Below, in pieces: positions 4,723 through 46,559 of a stretch of DNA of 64,000 nt. A model generated the notes under the pieces. The model saw only the letters and a program-made list of their open reading frames with translations, was not told the origin of the DNA and ran no database searches. The DNA comes from Streptomyces antimycoticus. Its GTDB lineage: Bacteria > Actinomycetota > Actinomycetes > Streptomycetales > Streptomycetaceae. Position 1 is the stretch's first letter; each line of letters starts with the position of its first letter. The stretch is from assembly GCF_005405925.1 (NCBI RefSeq), contig NZ_BJHV01000001.1, positions 8,990,001 through 9,054,000 of the forward strand. The letters run 5' to 3'. The translations under genes were made by a program, and so were the position numbers.

Positions 4723-5538
4723 TCAACGGCCGGCGCCGCGGTCGGGTGTCGCGGGGCGGGGGTCACTCGCCCCGACGACCGTGACCTCGACCCCCTGGGC
4801 CCGCAGCGCCCGGATCTCGTGGGGGTCGGCGCCGTCGTCGGTCACCAGCGTCCAGCCGGGCGGCAGCCGCACCCAGGTGTGGAAGGGGCGACGGCCGATC
4901 TTCGCGGCGTGCGCGAGTACGTACACCGCGTCCGCCCGGCGGGCCATCAGCTCCTTCAGCCGGGTCTGGCTCAGATCCGCCTCGCAGATGCCGTGTTCGG
5001 CCGTCACCCCGTCGGCGCCCAGGAACACCCGGTCGAAGGTCATGCGCTCCAGGGCCGCCTCGGCGAGTGGGCCCAGGAAGCTCTGGCTCAGCGGCCGGAG
5101 CGTACCGCCGAGGCATTCCACCCGTACGGTCTCCACATCGGCGAGCTCCTGCAGCGCGGTGAGCCCGGTCGTGGCCACCGTGAGCCCTTCGGCGGTGCGC
5201 AGCTCATGGGCGAGCGCGCCGACCGTCGAACCGGCGTCGAGCAGCACCGTCTCCCCGGTGCGGATCGTCGACGCCGCCCAGCGTGCGATGGCCCGCTTGG
5301 CCTCGAACGCCTCGCCGGTGCGCTGGCGCAGCGATGCCTCCGGGTGGGCGACCAGGGCCATCGCCCCGCCGTACGTCCGCGCCAGCCGCCCGTCCGCGGT
5401 GAGCTGGGCGAGGTCGCGGCGGATGGTGGAGGCGGTCACGCCGAAGGTGCGGGACAGCTCCTCCACGCTGGTCAGGCCCGTGGTCGTGGCGAGGTGGACG
5501 ATCTGGTCGCGCCGGGCCCGCGCTCCGTTCACCGGCAT
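4723..5538 (-). CDS. DeoR-family transcriptional regulator of the C4 acid-sugar operon
   Basis: The N-terminal DeoR-type helix-turn-helix (about residues 8-60; VEELSRTFGVTASTIRRDL) is followed by the DeoR sensor domain, a ribose-5-phosphate-isomerase-like fold. DAGSTVGALA near residue 100 is the usual effector (sugar-phosphate) loop. It is the last gene of a leftward operon after the DUF1537 kinase and PdxA, so it probably represses that operon in response to a phosphorylated four-carbon acid. The ATG at 5538 has GAGAG just upstream; a TTG at 5556 is an alternative. A 15-base direct repeat lies in its leader. Confidence 0.82.
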   Translation of the reverse strand: MPVNGARARRDQIVHLATTTGLTSVEELSRTFGVTASTIRRDLAQLTADGRLARTYGGAMALVAHPEASLRQRTGEAFEAKRAIARWAASTIRTGETVLLDAGSTVGALAHELRTAEGLTVATTGLTALQELADVETVRVECLGGTLRPLSQSFLGPLAEAALERMTFDRVFLGADGVTAEHGICEADLSQTRLKELMARRADAVYVLAHAAKIGRRPFHTWVRLPPGWTLVTDDGADPHEIRALRAQGVEVTVVGASDPRPATPDRGAGR

Positions 5539-5542
5539 CTCT

Positions 5543-5583
5543 CTCGCGTTCCTCAACGTGGGCTCGGCCTCGCGTTCCTCAAC
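5543..5583 (-). repeat. 15-bp direct repeat in the leader of the DeoR gene
   Basis: CTCGCGTTCCTCAAC occurs at 5543-5557 and again at 5569-5583 (26-base period), directly upstream of the DeoR start and after the pdxA stop. It could be a duplicated ribosome-binding or operator segment, since the complement carries GAGGAACGCGAG twice. Confidence 0.6.
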
Positions 5584-5614: not shown

Positions 5615-6670
5615 TCACTGGGCGGGGGACGGAGCCATCTCGGCGGCCTGCCGCAGCGCCTCGATCATGCTACCGGCGTCGGCCGTGCCGGTACCGGCGA
5701 TGTCGAAGGCGGTGCCGTGGTCGACGGAGGTGCGGATGACGGGCAGACCGACGGTCAGATTGACCCCGGCCTCCAGGCCCAGCACCTTGACCGGGCCGTG
5801 CCCCTGGTCGTGGTACATCGCCACGATCAGGTCGTAGTCACCGCGCCCGGCCAGGAAGAAGGCGGTGTCGGCGGGGAGCGGACCGCGGGCGTCGATGCCG
5901 TCGGCGCGCAGCACCTCCAGCGCGGGCACGATCTTCTCCTCCTCCTCGCCGTAGCCGAACAGCCCGTTCTCCCCGGCGTGCGGATTGATCCCGCACACCC
6001 CGATCACCGGTTCGGGGGTCCCGGCGCGGACCATCGCCTCATGGCCGCGGCGCACGGTCCGCTCGACCAGACCCGGCTCGATCTTCCGCACCGCGTCGAT
6101 GAGGCCGAGGTGGGTGGTGACGTGAATGACCTTCACCGTGGGGGTGGCCAGCATCATCGACACCTCCTCGACCCCGGTGAGCTGGGCCAGCAGTTCGGTG
6201 TGGCCGGGGAAGACATGGCCGCCCGCGTGCAGCGCCTCCTTGTTGAGCGGTGCGGTGCAGATGCCCTGCACCGCACCGTTCATGGCGAGTTCGGCGGCGG
6301 TCCGTACGTACTGGTAGGCCGCGTCCCCGGCCACCGGGGAGAGCGTGCCCCAGGGCAGTTCGGCGGGAAGCAGCCCGAGGTCGACGACGTTGATCCGGCC
6401 CGGGGGGAACGCCGCGTCGGCGGGCGCGGCCACGGTGACGATCTCGCACGCGATGTCGCGCAGCCGCGCGGCCTGGCGCAGCCGCTCCGCGTCCCCGATG
6501 ACCACCGGACGGCAGCGCCGCAGCGTGTCCGGGTCGAGCAGGGCGGGGACGATCACCTCGGGTCCGATGCCGGCGCCGTCGCCCATGGTGACCGCGATGA
6601 GCGGAAGCGGGGCGGGATCGGCGTCCGCACCAGCGGCCCCGGTGGGGGCGAGGTTGGTGGAGGAGTTCAT
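5615..6670 (-). CDS. PdxA-family 4-phospho-acid dehydrogenase (PdxA2 type)
   Basis: A 351-residue member of the PdxA family, which consists of NAD- and metal-dependent dehydrogenases that oxidise and decarboxylate 4-phospho-hydroxy acids. Family motifs visible are GDGAGIGPE near residue 32, CTAPLNKEAL, the metal ligand region HVTTHLGL, NPHAGE, MYHDQGHGPVK and TSVDHGTAFDIAG. Because it overlaps a DUF1537 kinase (ATGA) and lies next to a DeoR regulator, it is more likely the catabolic PdxA2 form (4-phospho-D-threonate or 4-phospho-D-erythronate dehydrogenase) than the vitamin B6 enzyme. The product would be dihydroxyacetone phosphate and CO2. The stereochemistry of the substrate cannot be read from the sequence. 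Confidence 0.88.
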   Translation of the reverse strand: MNSSTNLAPTGAAGADADPAPLPLIAVTMGDGAGIGPEVIVPALLDPDTLRRCRPVVIGDAERLRQAARLRDIACEIVTVAAPADAAFPPGRINVVDLGLLPAELPWGTLSPVAGDAAYQYVRTAAELAMNGAVQGICTAPLNKEALHAGGHVFPGHTELLAQLTGVEEVSMMLATPTVKVIHVTTHLGLIDAVRKIEPGLVERTVRRGHEAMVRAGTPEPVIGVCGINPHAGENGLFGYGEEEEKIVPALEVLRADGIDARGPLPADTAFFLAGRGDYDLIVAMYHDQGHGPVKVLGLEAGVNLTVGLPVIRTSVDHGTAFDIAGTGTADAGSMIEALRQAAEMAPSPAQ

Positions 6671-8951
6671 GAGGTGACCTTCCGTTCCATCGAGTGGGGG
6701 CGCAGCGCCTGGACGATCTGGTGCAGGGAGTCGGGGTCGCCGAAGCTGCCCGGTCGGGTCACGACGGACCGCCCGTCGGGAGTGGAGAGATGAACGGCCC
6801 CGTGGTGCACCTGGCCAACCGGATCGAGCTCGGTCACCGCCAGGGCATCCAGCACCCGGCGTGCCGTCTCGCCGCCGGTCAGCACGAGGTCTACGGCGCC
6901 GTGGTGCGCGGCGACGGCGTCCTGGACGGCGCGGGCGAGGCCGAGCACCAGCCGCCGGGCGGACACGGGCCGGGGCCGCGGGCCTGCCTCCCCGGCAGGG
7001 CCTTCGCTCGGGCTCCCGGCTGGGCCTCTGCTCGGGTCTGTGCGGTCGGTGCCGCCGCCGGACGGTGGCGCAGTGGCGGGCTGGAGGCCGGGTGCTGGGC
7101 TGGGCGGCGGGCCGGGGACGTCGGCGGGCGCGACGGCATCGTGCTCCGGACGGGGGGATGGGATGGGCGCCGCGCCCACTGCCGCCGCGCCGTGCGCCGT
7201 CGTCGCGTCCGGGTCCCCGGGCGAGGCGGCGAGGGAGACGACCGTGACGGGGACGGTCAGCGGGGGCAGCCGCAGCGGGGGACCGTCCGACAGCAGCACC
7301 GCGAGCGGAAGTCGGTGGTGGGTGGCGCCGTCCTCGACCAGGCGCCGGATCTGTTCGGAGGCCGCCGGTTCGGCCGTGCCGACGACGACCAGCACCGGTC
7401 GCCCGGTATCCGCCGAGGGCGCTGCGGCTCCGGCCGCCGAGACGGCGGCGCCCGCCGGTGTGGTGGCGGGGCCGGCCGGTGTGGTGGCGGGGCCGGCCGG
7501 GGTCGCAGTGGGAGTGTCGGCGCCCGGAGCCGCTGTGGTGGTGGGGGCGCCCGGAGCCGCCGTGGTGGTGGGGGCGGCTCCGGCGTTCGTAGAGGGCACC
7601 GCGGTTCCGGCCGTCGACGCGGCTGCCCCCGCCGGTGTGGTGATGGCCGGGGCGTTGGCGGCGGCCGGAGCCGTGGTGGGGTCGTTGTCGGCCAGGTTGG
7701 TGGCGGTGGTGGCAGCCGGGTCGGTGAGGGCCGGAGCCGTGGTGGGCTTGGTGGCGTCGGGGCCAGTGCTGGCGGGGCCAGTCGGGGTCGCGGTGGCCGT
7801 GTCGGCGGCCGGAGCCGTGGTGGCGGTGGCAGACGGGTCGGTGAGGGCCGGAGTCGTGGTGGGGTCGGTGGCGGCCGGAGTCGTGGTGGGCTTGGTGGCG
7901 GCGCGGCCTGTGTTGGCGGGGCCAGTCGGGGTCGCAGTGGCCGTGTCGGCGGCCGGAGCCGTGGTGGCGGTGGTGGCAGCCGGGACGGTGAAGGCCGGAG
8001 CCGCGGTGGCGGCGGTGGCAGCCGAGACCGTGACGGCCGGGGCGCCGGTGGGGTCGGTGACGGCCGGAACCGTGGCGGCGGAGGCGGCCGTGTTCGTGGC
8101 GGCCGGAGCCGTCGACACCGCCGTGGCCTGGGCGGTAGCCGGAGCCGCCGTGGCGGGAAGAGCCGTCGTCAGGTGGCGGCCGAGGGCCACGGCCAGGCCC
8201 CCTGAGCCGACCAGCCGCATCCGGGGCCCTCGGTGAGCGATGCCTCGACGACCGCGTCGAGATCGGCGTCCGTCTCCGCGTCGCAGATCGCCACCCGTCC
8301 GGCCGCCACGGCCGCGCGCAGTGCGGCCCGCAGGGCAGGCGGGGACGCCCGTACCGTCGTCAGCGGGATCAGCGCGGTCGGAAGGCCGCCGAGCGCCTGG
8401 GCCACCGAAGCGGGTGGGGGCAGGGCTTCGGCGCGCCATGCGTCGCCCTCGTGGAGCGCCACCCCGCCGATGTGGACCACCCCCGAGCGCACCACGCGAC
8501 CGGCGATCGGCAGTGCGGGGGCGAGCACCACACCCGCCCCGTCCTCGGCGAGGGCGGCGATCTCGGCGGCGACATTGCCCCGCAGCAGCGAGTCGATCTT
8601 CTTCAGTACGAGGGTGTCCCCGTCGTTCCCGTCGGCCTCCCCGTCGTTCCCGTCGGCCTCGCCGTCGGCCTCCCCGTCGGGTGACGACAGCCGCAGCGCG
8701 TCGCGGACCGCCTCGGCCGCCTCGGCGGCCGGCCGGTAGCGGGAGTCGAGGTCCAGGACGGTCGCCTCGCCGGGATGGCGAGGGCGCAAGGAGCTCGCCA
8801 CACCGCTGCTCGCCGCACCCCCGCTCACCGCGTCAGACATCCTCACAAGCACAACCCGACTGCGTGTTGTGCGCGAGTGAAGCGCGGCTGCCACTTCCGC
8901 GGCGCCTGACAGGTCATCCGCGATGGCCAACAGCCTCCGGTTGGGCGTCAT
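6667..8951 (-). CDS. Four-carbon acid-sugar kinase (DUF1537) with giant low-complexity insertion (frameshifted as sequenced)
   Basis: The N-terminal DUF1537 domain (about residues 1-250) shows ADDLSGAAEVAA and LKKIDSLLRGN. The C-terminal nucleotide-binding domain shows VLVVVGTAEPAASEQIR, LTGGETARRVL and RPGSFGDPDSL. The family phosphorylates C4 acids such as threonate or erythronate on O4. Family members are usually about 400-450 residues. This one is about 761, because some 230 Ala/Thr/Pro-rich residues (about 7430-8165) and a further disordered Pro/Gly/Asp stretch (about 7010-7220) lie between or within the domains. One G is missing in the GGGG run 8223-8226, which breaks the frame; adding it joins the two halves at GPRMRLVGSGGLA. 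The ATG at 8951 has GAGGAGG upstream. It is the first gene of the operon with pdxA and deoR. Confidence 0.8.
7430..8165 (-). repeat. Imperfect tandem repeats encoding Ala/Thr/Pro-rich insertion
   Basis: Highly repetitive DNA inside the kinase gene. The longest copies are about 144 bases apart: the stretches starting at 7771 and 7915 both begin GGCGGGGCCAGTCGGGGTCG and stay nearly identical for about 60 bases. Shorter units such as GGCCGGAGCCGTGGTGG recur many times. The period is a multiple of three, so copy changes keep the frame. On the protein level the unit resembles TATATPTGPA-TG-ATKPTT-PALTDP. Confidence 0.85.
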
Positions 8952-9187: not shown

Positions 9188-10761
9188 ATGACCCGTATCC
9201 CCTTCGGCCCGGCCCCCAGCCGCCGGTCCGTGCTGCGCCTCGGAGCAGGCGCCTCAGCAGGTATCGCCCTCGCCCCGCTGACCGGGTGCGCGGGCCCCAC
9301 CGGTGCCCCGGGCCCGGGGCCATCAGCCTCGGGCTGAACCGCTCGCTGGTCAGCCTGGACAACAAGCTGAACCAGTTCGACGCGGCGGTCACGGTGCAGC
9401 GCGCGGTGCGCCAGGCGCTGACCCGGATCGGCAAGGGGCTCCGGCCCGAGCTGGTGCTCGCCGACCGCTTCGAGATGACCGGGCCCACCGCCTGGACGGT
9501 GCGGCTGCGCGACGGAGCCCGCTACTCCGACGGAACCCCGGTCACCGTCAAGGACGTCTCGACCGCGCTCATGATGTACGCGGGCGTCAACGGCTCGTTC
9601 ATCGTCGGCCTCTTCCCCGAGATGCCCACCGTAGAGCCGGTCGACGAGCGCACCTTCCGCCTGCACACCAAGCGCCCGGTGCCCATCCTCGACCAGCTGA
9701 TGGCCAACATCCTGATCAGCCCCGCCGCCCGGAACCGGCCCGAGGAGCTGTCCGGCGGTGTGGGCTCCGGCCCGTACGTGGTCACCTCGGCCAACTCCGG
9801 CACCGGTGAGTACACCCTGGACGTCAACCCCCGGTACTGGGGGCGGCGCCCCACCGTGGACCGGGTGCGGGTGCGCTTCGTCCCCGAGGAGTCCAGCCGG
9901 GTCGTCGCCGTGCGCAGTGGTGAGCTGGATGTCATCGACACCATCACCCCCGACTCCGCCGAGCAGCTCAAGGGGTTGCCGGGGGTGCGTCTGGACCGCA
10001 CCTCGGGCACCCGCGTCAACCAGTTGTTCTTCAACTTCCGCAAACCGCGCGGACATCCGCTGGCCGACGCCCGGGTGCGCGAGGCGCTCAGCTACGCCAT
10101 CGACGGCGAGGCCCTGGTGCGCGATGTGCTCACCGGCTCCGCCCAGCAGGCCGAGGGCGTCATCCCGCTCGCCCTCAAGGGCTCGGTGCGCACCGGCCGT
10201 TACGTCCATGACCCCGGCCAGGCCCGCAAACGCCTCGCCGCGCTGGGCGCGAGCGATCTCAAGGTGAAGATCATCTGGGAGTCCGGCGAGTTCCCGGCGG
10301 ACACCTCGGTGATGGAGGCCGTGCTGGAGATGCTGCGCGCGGTCGGCGTCCGCGCCTCCCTCCAGCAGTTCGAACCGGGGGGCGACATCCAGCAGTGGCG
10401 GCAGGGCCGCCGGGGTGACTGGGACGTCCTCGGCAACGGCTTCTCCGTCCCCACCGGCCACGCCTCCACCAGCCTCCAGGGCATGTACGGCGGCACCGCG
10501 GAGAAGGAGAAGACCCGGGACACCTACCAGGGCTATGTCTTTCCGAAGATCGCCGCCCGGCTGGCCGACGCCTCCGCCGAAACGGACGAGAAGACGCGGA
10601 ACACCAAGCTCGCCGCGGTCCAGCAGCAGATCTGGGACACCCGCCCCTGCCTGTGGGCCTTCGTCCCCGATGTGGTGCTGGCCCGCCGCACCCGGGTGCG
10701 CGATGTGCGCCTGCTGCAGCTCAACTCCTACGATCTCGCCGCCGTGCGTCTGGAGGGCTGA
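9188..10761 (+). CDS. Oligopeptide/dipeptide-type ABC substrate-binding lipoprotein (frameshifted as sequenced)
   Basis: The N-terminus has a twin-arginine stretch (SRRSVLRLGAGAS) and a lipobox (LTGC), so it is probably a Tat-exported lipoprotein. The rest is an SBP family 5 protein, with the family region LRDGARYSDGTPVTVKDV near residue 110. The break is at GGGG 9316-9319; one extra G joins GAPGPG to AISLGLNRSLVSLD and gives about 524 residues. ATG 9188 follows GAGG. It heads an operon with two permeases and two ATPases (stop-to-start gap of 3 bases). Family 5 binders take peptides but also sugars and oligosaccharides. Given the neighbouring sugar-acid and sialidase-like genes, a glycan-derived ligand is possible. 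Confidence 0.85.
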
Positions 10762-24257: not shown

Positions 24258-24527
24258 TGGAGCCTCCCGATCGCGCGGATTCGCGCGGGTGACGAGATAC
24301 GTCAAAGTCGTCTTGGGGGCAGCAGCTTCTCGGAAGTACACGTGATCTCCATAAGATTTGTCGTAACGTGACAACTTCTAGTGGACGGACCCTGACCACG
24401 CCGTCCCCGGCTGATCCACTGTCGTTTCAATGGCAAAGAACCGGCAAAGTGTCGGGACCGGGTGGGGCAGGGTCCTCTATGACGTAGCGGAGGACCCTCG
24501 ACTCCCTGACCGGTACTGGACGAACCG

Positions 24528-25786
24528 GTGACGGAGGCAACCTCCACGGACCTGGCCGACCCCCCAACGGCCAGGTCTCCCCCCGGCAAGAACGAGGTAA
24601 TGATGGGCGAACTCGTGAACCGCATCTGGTCCCGCCCCCGTGGTGAGTGGACCCGAGTGCTGCGCAATGAACTCCCGTCCCTGGCCGACGAGGTGGTTGA
24701 GAACCTTCGGCACAGAATTCCGGGATTCGCCGAACTTCTGGAGGACTCTGAGCGAGACAAGGTCCGAGGGGGAGTCGAGCAGGCTCTCCTGACGGCACTC
24801 GGCCACCGCAAGGCGGGCGAGGACGGCGTGGGTGAGCAGGCCGCGACCCCCGCCTCCGGTGAGGAGGCGCTGGTCGAGGTGCCGCCCGAGCGGGCCCGGC
24901 GCGATCTGTTCGAGGCCCTCATCGGTGAAGTGGCGGTCTCCGAGCGCACCCTGATGGAGCTCTCCCGGGCCGCCCGGTGGCCGCTTCCCGAGACGGTGCA
25001 GGCCATCGCCCTGCCCACCCCGGGCGAGGCACCGCAGTTGGCCGCCGTGCTGGGTGACACCCTCATCGGCGCGGTCGGCGACGAGCTGTGCCTGCTGATC
25101 CCCGACCCGGACGCGGACCCGGGGCCCACAGTGGAGACCGCCGCCACCGCCGCCACCGCCGCCACCCCGGAAGGCGACCGGGAGCCGGAGCGCGAAGCGC
25201 CCGCCGAGCCCGGCACCCGGGCGGCGCTGGAGACCGCGCTGCGCGGCCGTACCGCAGCCGTGGGCCATGTGGTGCCGCTCAACGACGCTTCCTCGTCGGT
25301 GCGTTGGGCACGGCGCTTGCTGACCCTGGCACCCGCCCGCCCCGGCCCCGAGGCCCGGGTGCTCTTCGTCGACGACCATCTGTCGATGCTGCTGCTCCTG
25401 CAGGACGAGTCGCTGGTCCGGGCGCTGGCCGCCCGGTGGCTCAAGCCGCTGGTCGGGCTGACCCCCGGCAGAGCGAGCGGCTGCAGATGACGCTGCTGGC
25501 CTGGCTGGAGGGCGGTGGCGCGCCCGAGGCGGCCAAGGCCCTCAAGGTGCATCCGCAGACCGTGCGCTATCGGCTGCGCCAGATCGAGAAGCTCTTCGGG
25601 CCGGGCCTGCGGGATCCCCGAATACGCTTCGAGCTGGAGATGGCGCTGCGCGGCCGCAGGCTGATGGCGCAGATGGACCGGATACGGCGCCACGCGTCCC
25701 GGGTCGGCCGCCGGACCCGTGCCGGTGCGCCCCCCGGTGTCCGTCCGCTGGGCATCGCCAGGGAGGCGCGCGTCAACGGACTCTGA
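24528..25786 (+). CDS. PucR-type transcriptional regulator (frameshifted as sequenced)
   Basis: The C-terminal PucR/CdaR helix-turn-helix is clear (about residues 325-390: AKALKVHPQTVRYRLRQIE). A GGDEF-like middle region and an N-terminal part (ELVNRIWSRPRGEWTRVLR) common to Streptomyces regulators precede it. The frame breaks in CCCCCGG 25462-25468; one added base joins GLTPG to QSERLQMTLLAWLE, giving about 419 residues. Six repeats of GCCACCGCC near 25145 encode TAATAATAAT. GTG 24528 or ATG 24603 may be the start. It is divergent from the redox operon with a 270-base AT-richer gap and may control it. Confidence 0.75.
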
Positions 25787-32246: not shown

Positions 32247-32386
32247 AACTAGGGATCTTAGTCGAGCCCGTTTCGGGCACCGCGTTCTTCCGGCCGCCAT
32301 GCGACGTCAGACTTTCGTCACTCAATCGGCGTCGCCCTTCTCTTACGCTCGCGCCATTGACACATCAGCCTCGGGGGAACGAGACG

Positions 32387-32925
32387 ATGGACATCCGCAC
32401 GGCGGGCGTCACGACCGACGCCGACACCTTCTTAAAGACGCTGTACCGACGACACGGCTCGGCGCTGCACCGCCTGGCGGCCCGGAAGCTGGGCGGGGAC
32501 TGGCACCGGGCCCAGGACATCGTGCAGGAGGTGGCGATCCACGCCTGGCAGCGCCCCATGGACGTCGGCCCCATGGACGACACCGTCCGTAATCGGCTGT
32601 TCACCGTGGTCGGCGACCTGGTGACCGATGGCCACCAGGACCAGGCGGAGCGATCGGTGGAGACGGCCGGTGAGGCGGAGATGGCGCTGCCGGCCGCGCC
32701 GGACGCGGTCGATCAGGCACTCACCGCCCAGCTGGTGTGGGACGCGCTGGCGGACCTGGCGCCCCCGCAACGGGAAGTGCTGCTGCATCTGCACTATCTG
32801 GACCGCAGCGTCAGCCAGGCCGCCCGGGCGCTCGGGGTGCCCCCGGAACCATCAAATCGCGGACGTACTACGCGACTCGGGCCCTGCGAACGGCCCTGCG
32901 GGCGCGCGGCGTCACCGAGTGCTGA
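32387..32925 (+). CDS. Orphan ECF (SigE/SigL-like) sigma factor (frameshifted as sequenced)
   Basis: Region 2 (residues 15-80) has LYRRHGSALHRLAARK and DIVQEVAIHAWQ. Region 4 (about 115-170) has LAPPQREVLLHLHYLDRSVSQAARALGVPPG. The frame breaks in CCCCCGG 32840-32846; one added G restores TIKSRTYYATRALRTAL and a stop at 32925, giving 179 residues. No anti-sigma gene follows, unlike most members of this group. ATG 32387 is preceded by GGGGGAA. It is divergent from the SARP gene, 140 bases away. Confidence 0.8.
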
Positions 32926-43735: not shown

Positions 43736-44593
43736 TCAGCGGGCCAGTTCGAGAGCGGGGATCTCCTGATGCAGGGGCAACCGCGCCCCGCAGACGGTCG
43801 CCTGGGCCTGTGCCGCGACCCTGCGCCGGTCGTCGACGTCCCGCATCGGCCGCAGCGCACGGTGCACGGCCACCCGCACGGTGAGCCCGTCGGCGCGCAG
43901 CACCCGGCGCAGCGAGCCGCCGAAGTCGTCCTCGCCGACGAAGGCCGCCACCGTGGTCGGGGCGCCGTGCTGGACGTACTCCAGCGTCACCGGACGCACC
44001 GGCGCGCCCGCGTCCAGCGCGGCCTGGAAGGTGGCCCGCCGGAAGCCGCCGCCCGTGCCCGAACACCAGGTGATGCCCTGGGGAAAGGCCATCACCGACT
44101 GGCCGTCACGCATCCGGGCGGCCATCTCCCGTACGGTGTCGGGGAGTTCGCGTAGCGAACCGCGGTCGATGTACAGCGTGCCCGCGCGGGTGGCCAGCGA
44201 GCCGATCAGCGGCCAGCCCGCGATCTCCCGCTTGGCCAGCATCACCACGGGCTCCACCGCGAGCAGCGCGAGGATGTCCAGCCAGGAGATGTGATTCGCC
44301 ACGACGAGCGTGCCGGTGCCGCCGGGCGCGCTGAGCGTGCTGTCGCCCGTCACCTCCAGCCGGATGCCGAGGGAGTCCAGCAGCGTCGCCGCCCGCGCCC
44401 GCAGCGTCTCGGGCTCGGCGATCCGCCGACCGGACAGCATCGCGCCCATCACCGCCCGGACGAAGACCGCGGCCCGCCGGGCGCCCCGGGTGGCCGGGAC
44501 GCGGTCGGCGGCGTGGGAGACACAGCCGGGAGTGCACGGGGACCAGCCCGCCCAGGCGTGCTCGGGCAGACTCATCGCGGCCGTGTCGGTCAC
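43736..44593 (-). CDS. olsA: 1-acyl-glycerol-3-phosphate-type acyltransferase (ornithine lipid O-acyltransferase)
   Basis: A 285-residue PlsC-family acyltransferase with the catalytic NHISWLD (NHx4D box) near residue 100, the acceptor motif region LYIDRGS near 140 and FPQG (usually FPEG) near 170. The GTG start overlaps the OlsB stop by 4 bases. In this pairing it should add the second fatty acid to lyso-ornithine lipid, giving a phosphorus-free membrane lipid. PlsC duties in phospholipid synthesis are an alternative. Confidence 0.85.
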   Translation of the reverse strand: MTDTAAMSLPEHAWAGWSPCTPGCVSHAADRVPATRGARRAAVFVRAVMGAMLSGRRIAEPETLRARAATLLDSLGIRLEVTGDSTLSAPGGTGTLVVANHISWLDILALLAVEPVVMLAKREIAGWPLIGSLATRAGTLYIDRGSLRELPDTVREMAARMRDGQSVMAFPQGITWCSGTGGGFRRATFQAALDAGAPVRPVTLEYVQHGAPTTVAAFVGEDDFGGSLRRVLRADGLTVRVAVHRALRPMRDVDDRRRVAAQAQATVCGARLPLHQEIPALELAR

Positions 44594-45348
44594 CGGGATT
44601 CACCGAGGAAGTAGCGGCGGTAGCGGTCGTTCATCCGCTCGGTGTCCAGCAGTACGAAGAAGTCGGCGTCGTTGAAGGCCCGGTCGTGCTGCGGGGAGCC
44701 GCACATCCAGGCGCCGACCCGCAGATAGCCGCGGAGCAGCGGCGGCAGGTCCGCGTAGCTGGGCTCGCCGTCCAGCGGCCGCGAGGGTATCCACGGGTCG
44801 AGCGGGTGGACCCGCATCTCGGCCGGGGCGGCGTGCTTGGTGGTGCCGAGCAGCCAGGCGTTGGCGGCCGCCCCCTCGCCCTCGGCCAGTGGAACCGAGG
44901 CACAGCCCGCGAGATAGCGATGGCCGGACAGCAGCACATAGCGGGCCAGGCCGGCCCACATGAGGTTGATGACCGCGCCCGTGCGGTGGTCGGCGTGGAC
45001 ACAGGCCCGGCCGGTCTCGACCATGGACGAGCGGACCTCGGTCGGAAGACCGCGCAGATCGAACTCGGTGTCCGAGTAGAGCCGCCCGCTGCGTCCGGGA
45101 GGAAGCAGCCGGTAGGTGCCGACCACGGTGCCCGTCGCCGTGTCCGTGACGATCAGGTGGTCCATGACCTCGTCGAACTCGTCCACGTCGCGGCCGTCGA
45201 CCGCGGCGTCCAGCCGGCCGCCCCTCTCCTCGCCGAACACCTGGTAGCGCAGCCGCTGCGCGGCGTGGATCTGCTCCTGGGTGTGGGCGATCGAGGTGAC
45301 GTACGAGCTGGTGGGCGCCGTCGTCGAGGACGTCGTGAGCACGGACAT
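44590..45348 (-). CDS. olsB: Ornithine N-acyltransferase OlsB-like (GNAT superfamily)
   Basis: A 252-residue GNAT-fold protein of the OlsB group, which transfers a 3-hydroxyacyl chain from acyl-carrier protein to ornithine. Visible are LRYQVFGEERGGRLD near residue 35, DHLIVTDTATGTVVGTYRLL, ETGRACVHADHRTGAVINLMW and the C-terminal PLLRGYLRVGAWMCG. The ATG has GGAGAACAGGA upstream. It is coupled to olsA. Ornithine lipids replace phospholipids under phosphate limitation in many bacteria. Confidence 0.85.
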   Translation of the reverse strand: MSVLTTSSTTAPTSSYVTSIAHTQEQIHAAQRLRYQVFGEERGGRLDAAVDGRDVDEFDEVMDHLIVTDTATGTVVGTYRLLPPGRSGRLYSDTEFDLRGLPTEVRSSMVETGRACVHADHRTGAVINLMWAGLARYVLLSGHRYLAGCASVPLAEGEGAAANAWLLGTTKHAAPAEMRVHPLDPWIPSRPLDGEPSYADLPPLLRGYLRVGAWMCGSPQHDRAFNDADFFVLLDTERMNDRYRRYFLGESR

Positions 45349-45552
45349 TCCTGTTCTCCGTTCAAGGGAAGTCAGGAGCGGTGGGGACTGGGGAAGAGCG
45401 GAAGAAACGCCTCACTCGCCGTGCGGTGCGCCGAGGCGGCGCGCACTGCAGGCGTTCACCAGTCTTGCCGTGGCGACGTACGTCACAGTGTCCGTGTGGT
45501 GATTCGGCGACTGCCAGTCGATGACGAACACATGCCGCTGGTCGGCCCGTGG

Positions 45553-46233
45553 TTACGGAGCGGTAGCGCCGGTGCCGCCGTTGTCATCGGTGCCAGAAGC
45601 GGTCCGGTGCGCGAAGCCCAGTGAGTGGGCGGCGGTGGCGGGGGTGGGCTGGGACCAGTAGTCGCTGACGGCCTGGGCCGAGGACAGGGAACGAGTTTCG
45701 GCCAGATCCAGATAGAGGACGCCGTCGAGATGGTCGGTCTCGTGCTGGACGATCCGCGCGGGCCAGCCGGTGAACTCCTCGTCCAGCTCGCGCCCCGTCT
45801 CGTCCTGCCCGCGCAGCCGGATCCGGTCCGGGCGGCTGACCACGGCCTGCCAGCCGGGGATGCTCAGGCACCCCTCGAAGAACGCCGCCCGGCCGTCGCC
45901 GACCGGTTCGTAGGCGGGATTGACCAGCACCCGGTACGGCTGCGGCACCCGGCCGCGCACCTCCCGCACCTCGTCCGCCACCTCCGCCGGGTCCTCGATC
46001 ACCGCGAGCCGCAGCGGCACACCGATCTGCGGGGCGGCGAGCCCCACCCCGGGCGCGGAGTGCATCGTCTCCCGCATCGCCGCCAGCAGCCGGTCCAGCT
46101 GGTCCGCGGCCAGCTGGCCCTCGTACGGCAGGGCCGGCTGCCGGAGGACGGGGACGCCCGCGGAGATGATCGGCAGCGGGCGGGTCCCGGAGAGCAGTTC
46201 GTCGACGAGCTCGGACACGGTGGTGGTCGGCAT
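45553..46233 (-). CDS. def: Peptide deformylase
   Basis: A 226-residue metallo-enzyme that removes the formyl group from new proteins. All three motifs are intact: GVGLAAPQIG near residue 70, EGCLSIPG near 125 and QHETDHLDG near 170 (HExxH zinc site). The length and C-terminal tail match the larger actinobacterial form. ATG 46233 is the conventional start (PTTTVSELVDELL) though it lacks a good ribosome binding site. It is probably one of several def paralogues. Confidence 0.93.
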   Translation of the reverse strand: MPTTTVSELVDELLSGTRPLPIISAGVPVLRQPALPYEGQLAADQLDRLLAAMRETMHSAPGVGLAAPQIGVPLRLAVIEDPAEVADEVREVRGRVPQPYRVLVNPAYEPVGDGRAAFFEGCLSIPGWQAVVSRPDRIRLRGQDETGRELDEEFTGWPARIVQHETDHLDGVLYLDLAETRSLSSAQAVSDYWSQPTPATAAHSLGFAHRTASGTDDNGGTGATAP

Positions 46234-46559
46234 GGGGACAGCCTGACAGACGATCACCGGGGGCGTGGCCGGTGCTCAAGCGGCGGGTGCTCACCCCCGG
46301 GTGCTCACCATCGGACAAAAGGTGAACAGGGCACCGATGGGGTCCGTAGACGCCGATGAGCCGCCGGGAACATCCCACGCCCCCGCGGCTCGGCCGAGTC
46401 CTCCCGGCTCGGTCGCTGCCGCCCCGCGGCGCTCCCCCCGTTGTGCACGGCGGGGCGGCAGCCCTTCCCGCCACCCTCGCCCGTTGTGTCGTTTTCGTCG
46501 TACGTGCGCGGGTACCCGCTCGCCGCACGGGCCCCGGAGGAGGGGCGGAGGGAGGGCGG
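46234..46559. other. Intergenic gap between def and a small conserved gene
   Basis: 326 bases with no convincing gene. GGTGCTCA occurs three times (46271, 46286 and 46300). A rightward frame from 46356 joins the downstream gene but has no ribosome binding site until 46560. Confidence 0.4.

Follow-up and report, generated by a model that had tools for sequence, protein, structure and literature searches.

A tandem-repeat linker of variable length in a putative DUF1537 four-carbon acid sugar kinase of Streptomyces antimycoticus

Introduction

Ala/Pro-rich linkers are a feature of dihydrolipoamide acetyltransferase (E2), where they carry a mobile lipoyl domain, and the textbook cases of coding variable-number tandem repeats (VNTRs) are surface proteins. 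Prokaryotic proteins with low-complexity regions include dihydrolipoamide acetyltransferase (PMC6821194). DUF1537 enzymes are described in two reviews as phosphorylating four-carbon sugar acids (PMC7954711, PMC10971088). Here we describe a gene for a kinase of this family in a 64,000-nucleotide stretch of the Streptomyces antimycoticus genome (NCBI RefSeq assembly GCF_005405925.1, contig NZ_BJHV01000001.1, positions 8,990,001 to 9,054,000), hereafter the window. Its two domains are separated by a repeat-built linker of 264 amino acids (aa), and the length of this linker varies between proteins with identical cores. In the titles and abstract openings returned by a literature search, nothing on this linker was apparent.

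Results

Domain organization of the kinase gene

Positions 6667-8951 on the minus strand of the window contain the N- and C-terminal halves of a four-carbon acid sugar kinase (DUF1537). The N-terminal half matched PF07005 (SBD_N) with an E value of 4.1e-33 in a profile search, and P0144, a 761-aa database protein that aligns to the two halves with zero mismatches (residues 1-243 and 242-761, respectively), scored 116.3 bits against the same profile, for which the cut-off is 25. In the C-terminal half we found PF17042 (NBD_C; E 7.5e-15, 56.3 bits vs a cut-off of 28.3), aligned over profile positions 92-168 only, presumably because a second insert splits this domain; the motif of the first NBD_C strand, RPVLVVVGTAEP, is also present in this half. 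The two-domain fold of the family is present, and the family assignment made in the preliminary description of this DNA is supported. The six best structural matches were PDB 5dmh, 3dqq, 4xgj, 4xfr, 4xg0 and 1yzy, among which 3dqq is titled a putative tRNA synthase and yet is a sequence relative. Columns invariant in 50 relatives are retained (e.g. D12, D13, K118, D120, R124, G693 and G694), and they fall within the stretches where the window equals P0144. Against the D-threonate kinase equivalog NF047819, P0144 scored 88.6 bits, below the curated 450 bits, and the short relatives P0011 and P0035 reached only 117.5 and 113.8 bits, also below 450. For the 3-oxo-tetronate kinase equivalog NF043035 (cut-off 350 bits), the N-terminal half scored 33 bits and P0144 was absent at E <= 0.001. 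We infer from the sequence that the protein would be an ordinary four-carbon acid sugar kinase. The features of the gene, with repeats located by Tandem Repeats Finder (TRF), are as follows.

8223..8951, minus strand: N-terminal half of the kinase, SBD_N (PF07005), residues 1-243, identical to P0144; its open reading frame (ORF) reads on in the wrong frame as far as a stop at 8169
8617..8667, minus strand: small acidic repeat in an SBD_N loop, 21-bp unit DGEADGN (TRF), another length-variable site
8223..8229, minus strand: frame break between the gene halves, in a G/C run, the window being one base short vs P0144
6667..8229, minus strand: C-terminal half, in a separate frame and corresponding to P0144 residues 242-761; holds the linker, insert 2 and NBD_C
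7402..8190, minus strand: linker between the domains, predicted to be unstructured; anchors give 264 aa, with A 34 / T 26 / P 15 %
7718..8032, minus strand: main tandem array, 144-bp (48-codon) unit, 2.2 copies, 87% matches (TRF)
7231..7401, minus strand: first part of the nucleotide-binding domain (NBD), with RPVLVVVGTAEP
6958..7230, minus strand: second disordered insert (insert 2), inside the NBD, 91 aa, Pro/Ser/Gly/Asp-rich
6667..6957, minus strand: conserved final block of NBD_C, PF17042 profile positions 92-168, including DLVLTGGETA

The tandem repeats

The preliminary description had the conserved kinase ends separated by Ala/Thr/Pro repeats and a second low-complexity stretch, and this arrangement is what we find. 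Its period of about 144 bases with shorter units was recovered by TRF as a 144-bp unit (2.2 copies, score 477) alongside units of 42, 27 and 21 bp; its insertion of about 230 residues is real, though the linker is slightly longer, at 264 aa by anchor motifs. Chance was ruled out as a source of the repeats, since 200 codon shuffles of the linker gave a best TRF score of 160. The array is also not a mobile or genome-wide repeat, the sole match outside its own gene being a weak one (C1:5847039-5847140, L039; 72% over 102 bp). Nor is it a trait of all DUF1537 members, as the genome's paralogues L001 and L002 lack such an insert, and nothing supports a wall or secreted protein, the core having a kinase fold of cytoplasmic type and the gene lying in a catabolic cluster. 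Two plus-strand ORFs antisense to the array (7040-8236 and 6694-8205) were taken as open through composition only.

Relative to the sister genome G055, the ratio of nonsynonymous to synonymous substitution (dN/dS) was 0.44 in the SBD and 0.22 and 0.29 in the two NBD parts, and 0.83 in the linker and 0.66 in insert 2, the last two values being rough because the repeat alignment is arbitrary. The two 48-codon repeat copies of the window gave 1.03 against each other. In-frame gaps in the same comparison numbered 18 in the 2.3 kb of the kinase and 14 in the 40.7 kb of 39 other ORFs; the small acidic repeat in SBD_N has a 30-bp insertion at 8629.

Linker length among relatives

Relatives came from two protein searches (search 1, 145-462 aa; search 2, 438-1394 aa), each of which scored the 7,997 candidates with the most words in common and listed the best 120. 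Hidden Markov model (HMM) anchors allowed measurement in 209 of 237 proteins, 28 lacking an anchor being left out; motif anchors give linkers about 5 aa longer. In the 84 closest full-length matches listed, linkers ranged from 53 to 314 aa with a median of 141 (HMM anchors). These 84 are the measured ones of P0122-P0206, grouped by rank in search 2 and not by taxonomy; many in this set are named just Streptomyces sp., and P0128 is labelled Stenotrophomonas sp. Linkers in 125 other proteins, which are no random sample as they derive from the best 120 matches per search, spanned 14-100 aa (median 22), and 107 of the proteins stayed below 60 aa. Insert 2 behaved similarly, with 32-139 aa in the main set (median 93) and a median of 10 in the others, while the final NBD_C block measured 94 aa in 77 of 79 proteins. 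Constant kinase ends with a repeat linker of variable length are thus seen in relatives, which is the pattern the preliminary description had suggested looking for.

All 13 species names of the S. violaceusniger group (NCBI) occurred among the matches listed. Twelve have a measurable linker, each of at least 53 aa, and the S. yatensis record ends before the linker. Of the search 1 matches listed, those sharing 73% or more identity with the N-terminal half in the window (P0001-P0010; the 201-aa fragment P0020 excepted) include no complete protein, all ten being partial, truncated or frame-lost. Separately, several of P0195-P0205, mostly named S. hygroscopicus, carry an extra repeat array in a loop near the kinase N-terminus (GEGDGGA..RPPHP type, seen in P0197 and P0200), and SBD length reaches 363 residues among them.

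The linkers of 84 proteins of P0121-P0206 consist of A, T and P to 51-75%, with 4-15% charge. Aromatic residues and Cys, the usual drivers of condensation, make up only 39 of their 12,292 residues. Repeat motifs differ by lineage: A/T/P repeats in the antimycoticus type, a PGATNPAA-type repeat in S. iranensis and A/T/E/R repeats with high charge in S. himastatinicus. The linker of L019 (6001-7700) contains apparent duplicate copies of the C-terminal end of its own SBD, pointing to in-frame tandem duplication as the source.

Length changes fast. The 78 main-set proteins compared (P0155, P0193 and P0206 were left out) include 75 pairs with core identity of 99% or more, of which 68% have linkers of unequal length, the largest difference being 102 aa; at 98-99% core identity, 40% of 142 pairs differ. 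Short-read collapse of repeats could make some of the reported lengths too short. With identical cores, P0141 and P0138 differ in the linker (207 vs 146 aa), and the linker of P0143 is 37 aa shorter than that of P0144 at 99.5% core identity.

In the second core tree (44 proteins, three of the 47 chosen left out; bootstrap not fully settled), the main expanded clade comprised 26 rows with support 98/96 and linkers of 58-319 aa by motif anchors. The expanded group had support 97/98 in the first tree, which left out nine of 53 chosen proteins and was also built without L018, L019 and P0011. S. himastatinicus (L018; L040 has an identical core) fell outside the main clade with a linker of 328 aa, next to P0011 (Streptomyces sp. 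BRA346, 32 aa, 93.6% core identity) and P0210 (98 aa); the second inserts of L018 and P0011 measure 121 vs 20 aa. Similarly, Streptomyces sp. NBS 14/10 (L019), with 173 aa, stood beside P0013 (32 aa, 96.1% core identity). Smaller linkers of 76-87 aa were found in P0213, P0215 and P0219. The placement of L018 and L019 beside relatives with 32 aa indicates that the site grew more than once. Judged from the second tree, growth at the interdomain site occurred in at least three lineages, and close relatives lack the long form. A single expansion for the entire violaceusniger group was accordingly dropped, given that S. himastatinicus lies outside the main clade beside a short-linker protein.

The frame break

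The preliminary description assumed one continuous frame of about 761 residues, and this did not hold in the assembly: the stretch 6667-8951 is 2,285 bases long, no multiple of three, and the kinase ORFs lie in different frames (N-half 8963-8169, C-half 8439-6667), broken at 8223-8229. An intervening stop codon, named there as the observation that would speak against it, does end the N-half ORF. Its further point that the repeats keep the frame is correct within the repeat tract, the assembled gene being frame-broken just upstream. In G055 the kinase is open (841 aa counted from the first ATG and about 797 aa if translation begins at the likely start); 18 of the 23 gaps between the two genes are multiples of three, and the other five are two compensating pairs and the break itself. 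P0144 comes from another assembly, since its longest contig (182,064 bases) differs from the window's contig of 10,917,594 bases.

The kinase is not alone in this respect. Across the window, frame changes were found in 5 of 42 sister ORFs (those of G055 matched over more than 80%; the kinase lies outside G055's 55-ORF set and is not counted), one of them at three places. In the reverse comparison 4 of 39 window ORFs were listed as changed in G055, two of which (1425 and 32357) fall where the window itself has a single-base gap. A second single-base break affects the adjacent solute-binding lipoprotein (solute-binding protein, SBP), whose mature part is out of frame with its signal peptide (from about 9190) in the window; the lipoprotein is whole in six of seven other loci (L031, L015, L017, L019, L020 and L021), and in L018 the motif was not found. 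Single missing bases, several within G/C runs, suggest assembly error, and we consider it very likely, on sequence comparison, that the kinase break is one.

Among the other affected genes, that at 24368-25783 (plus strand) is whole in G055 (473 aa) and has three single-base frame changes here; its longest piece has no Pfam match. Frame changes vs G055 were also seen in sigma-factor-like (32357-32922), GNAT acetyltransferase-like (44593-45446) and polypeptide deformylase-like (45556-46453) genes. Besides 8223-8229, breaks in the window fall at about 9310, 24463, 24514, 25462, 32842 and 45389.

Gene neighbourhood

The genes flanking the kinase are the following.

5615..6670, minus strand: pdxA-family dehydrogenase, whose ATG shares bases with the stop codon of the kinase (ATGA, 6667-6670)
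4723..5556, minus strand: DeoR-family regulator, same cluster
9286..10761, plus strand: solute-binding lipoprotein of an ABC transporter, divergent; coordinates are those of the ORF, and the signal peptide (from about 9190) lies in another frame

DeoR and PdxA genes adjoin the kinase in 11 of 12 loci and SBP and permease genes do so in nine of 12, among them Pedococcus and Phycicoccus; the missing ones include loci cut at contig ends. By its gene content, the kinase belongs to a conserved and putatively catabolic deoR-pdxA-kinase/ABC-transporter cluster. Natural kinase-PdxA fusions were observed in other Streptomyces (P0207, P0209, P0214, P0236 and P0237).

Discussion

The reading we regard as probable is that of an ordinary kinase with a minisatellite linker that serves as a tolerated flexible tether, the frame break being an assembly error. 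The two domains together would make up a standard enzyme of about 420 residues, whose natural interdomain linker became an intragenic minisatellite in S. violaceusniger-type Streptomyces; comparable growth took place separately at that position in two or more neighbouring lineages. Linker length would change quickly through tandem duplications, a mechanism suggested by the repeats, and deletions, both in frame. Selection would keep the reading frame and the domains on either side and, in the main clade, a composition that is hydrophilic, poor in aromatic residues and rich in Ala and Thr, whereas length and motif are not conserved. Both the linker and insert 2 would remain unfolded, with the enzyme closing around them. 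A flexible linker had been among the roles raised by the preliminary description, and our model is consistent with it. The scaffold or condensate role raised alongside it found no support, with lineage-specific motifs, high charge in one lineage, a linker dN/dS of about 0.83 and few aromatic residues and Cys. A tolerated tether of presumably near-neutral length is most likely, rather than a dedicated scaffold.

Several observations weigh against this reading. No measured linker of the main kinase clade, among the matches listed, is shorter than 53 aa (84 of 84), and A+T+P is held at 51-75%; some function could explain both, and the dN/dS values of linker and insert 2 are rough. If length or disorder were selected, the linker might act as a scaffold, a crowding brush, a condensate former, a tether adjusting domain closure or passing product on to PdxA; that the linker site grew in parallel in three or more lineages could likewise reflect selection, and the kinase-PdxA fusions elsewhere in Streptomyces hint that nearness to PdxA may matter. 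We consider such a function unlikely, however, because the motifs are lineage-specific (A/T/E/R in himastatinicus, PGATNPAA in iranensis, A/T/P in antimycoticus), 32 aa suffice in relatives whose cores are 93-96% identical, the linker dN/dS is near 0.8, length differs between proteins with identical cores, and there are hardly any aromatic residues. Very unlikely, in our estimation, is an adjustable linker, in which copy number and frequent single-base slips in the flanks would tune or switch the kinase and the translationally coupled pdxA by strain; if true, it would represent contingency-locus-like control of a metabolic enzyme in Streptomyces.

Further opposing points concern the frame. This genome does not hold the kinase in a single continuous ORF, which is a requirement for a functional gene though no trait of the family, the closeness of P0144's strain to the window strain is itself deduced from sequence, and six database records (P0001, P0002, P0004, P0005, P0121 and P0130) lose the frame, each elsewhere, which could be recurrent real inactivation. 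Moreover, a check of essential genes for assembly errors found rpoB, rpoC and two copies of dnaE intact; errors are therefore not spread over the whole assembly, and the check is not decisive; as a separate observation, one additional polC-like match may be split. A kinase turning pseudogene in this lineage, gathering inserts and a real frameshift, would fit these differing break sites and an SBD dN/dS (0.44) that is not very low. It appears quite unlikely given the unbroken P0144 on another contig, the one-frame gene in nine other loci (L015-L019, L031, L040, L043 and L059, L018 and L040 sharing a core), the low dN/dS of the NBD parts, the retained invariant columns, and the similar single-base breaks in other window genes, including the SBP. 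That the array itself is misassembled is barely credible: tandem repeats are prone to assembly problems and this assembly does have single-base gaps, but the same array is present in P0144 on another contig, and in-frame variants exist in P0143 and other strains.

Fast and repeated in-frame minisatellite growth is documented within a cytoplasmic metabolic enzyme, the linker of which can apparently grow freely while the folded parts stay fixed. The relatives form a natural length series in which the core of the enzyme stays constant while the linker spans about 20 to more than 300 residues, identical-core pairs included, and close relatives with 32 vs 328 residues (93.6% core identity) make the effect of linker length on a two-domain kinase directly testable. 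A caution also follows for databases, in which high-GC repeat genes may look truncated or partial.

Comparison with known systems

The window kinase resembles solved DUF1537 kinases in having both Pfam domains above cut-off, structural matches, and pdxA and DeoR neighbours. It differs from the solved enzymes, whose aligned chains are 393-420 residues long, by 264 aa between the domains and 91 aa within NBD_C. As in kinase-PdxA fusions, the kinase precedes PdxA (the domain order seen for P0207 and P0237), but there the kinase is fused to PdxA, with linkers of 23-86 aa, while the window has two separate genes with an ATGA overlap. Like other low-complexity prokaryotic enzymes, it carries low-complexity stretches within an ordinary cytoplasmic enzyme; unlike in E2, the linker bears no mobile domain, and its length varies between proteins with identical cores. 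It likewise resembles intragenic tandem repeats, or coding VNTRs, with in-frame units whose copy number varies between strains, except that the gene concerned is here not that of a textbook surface protein but of a metabolic kinase.
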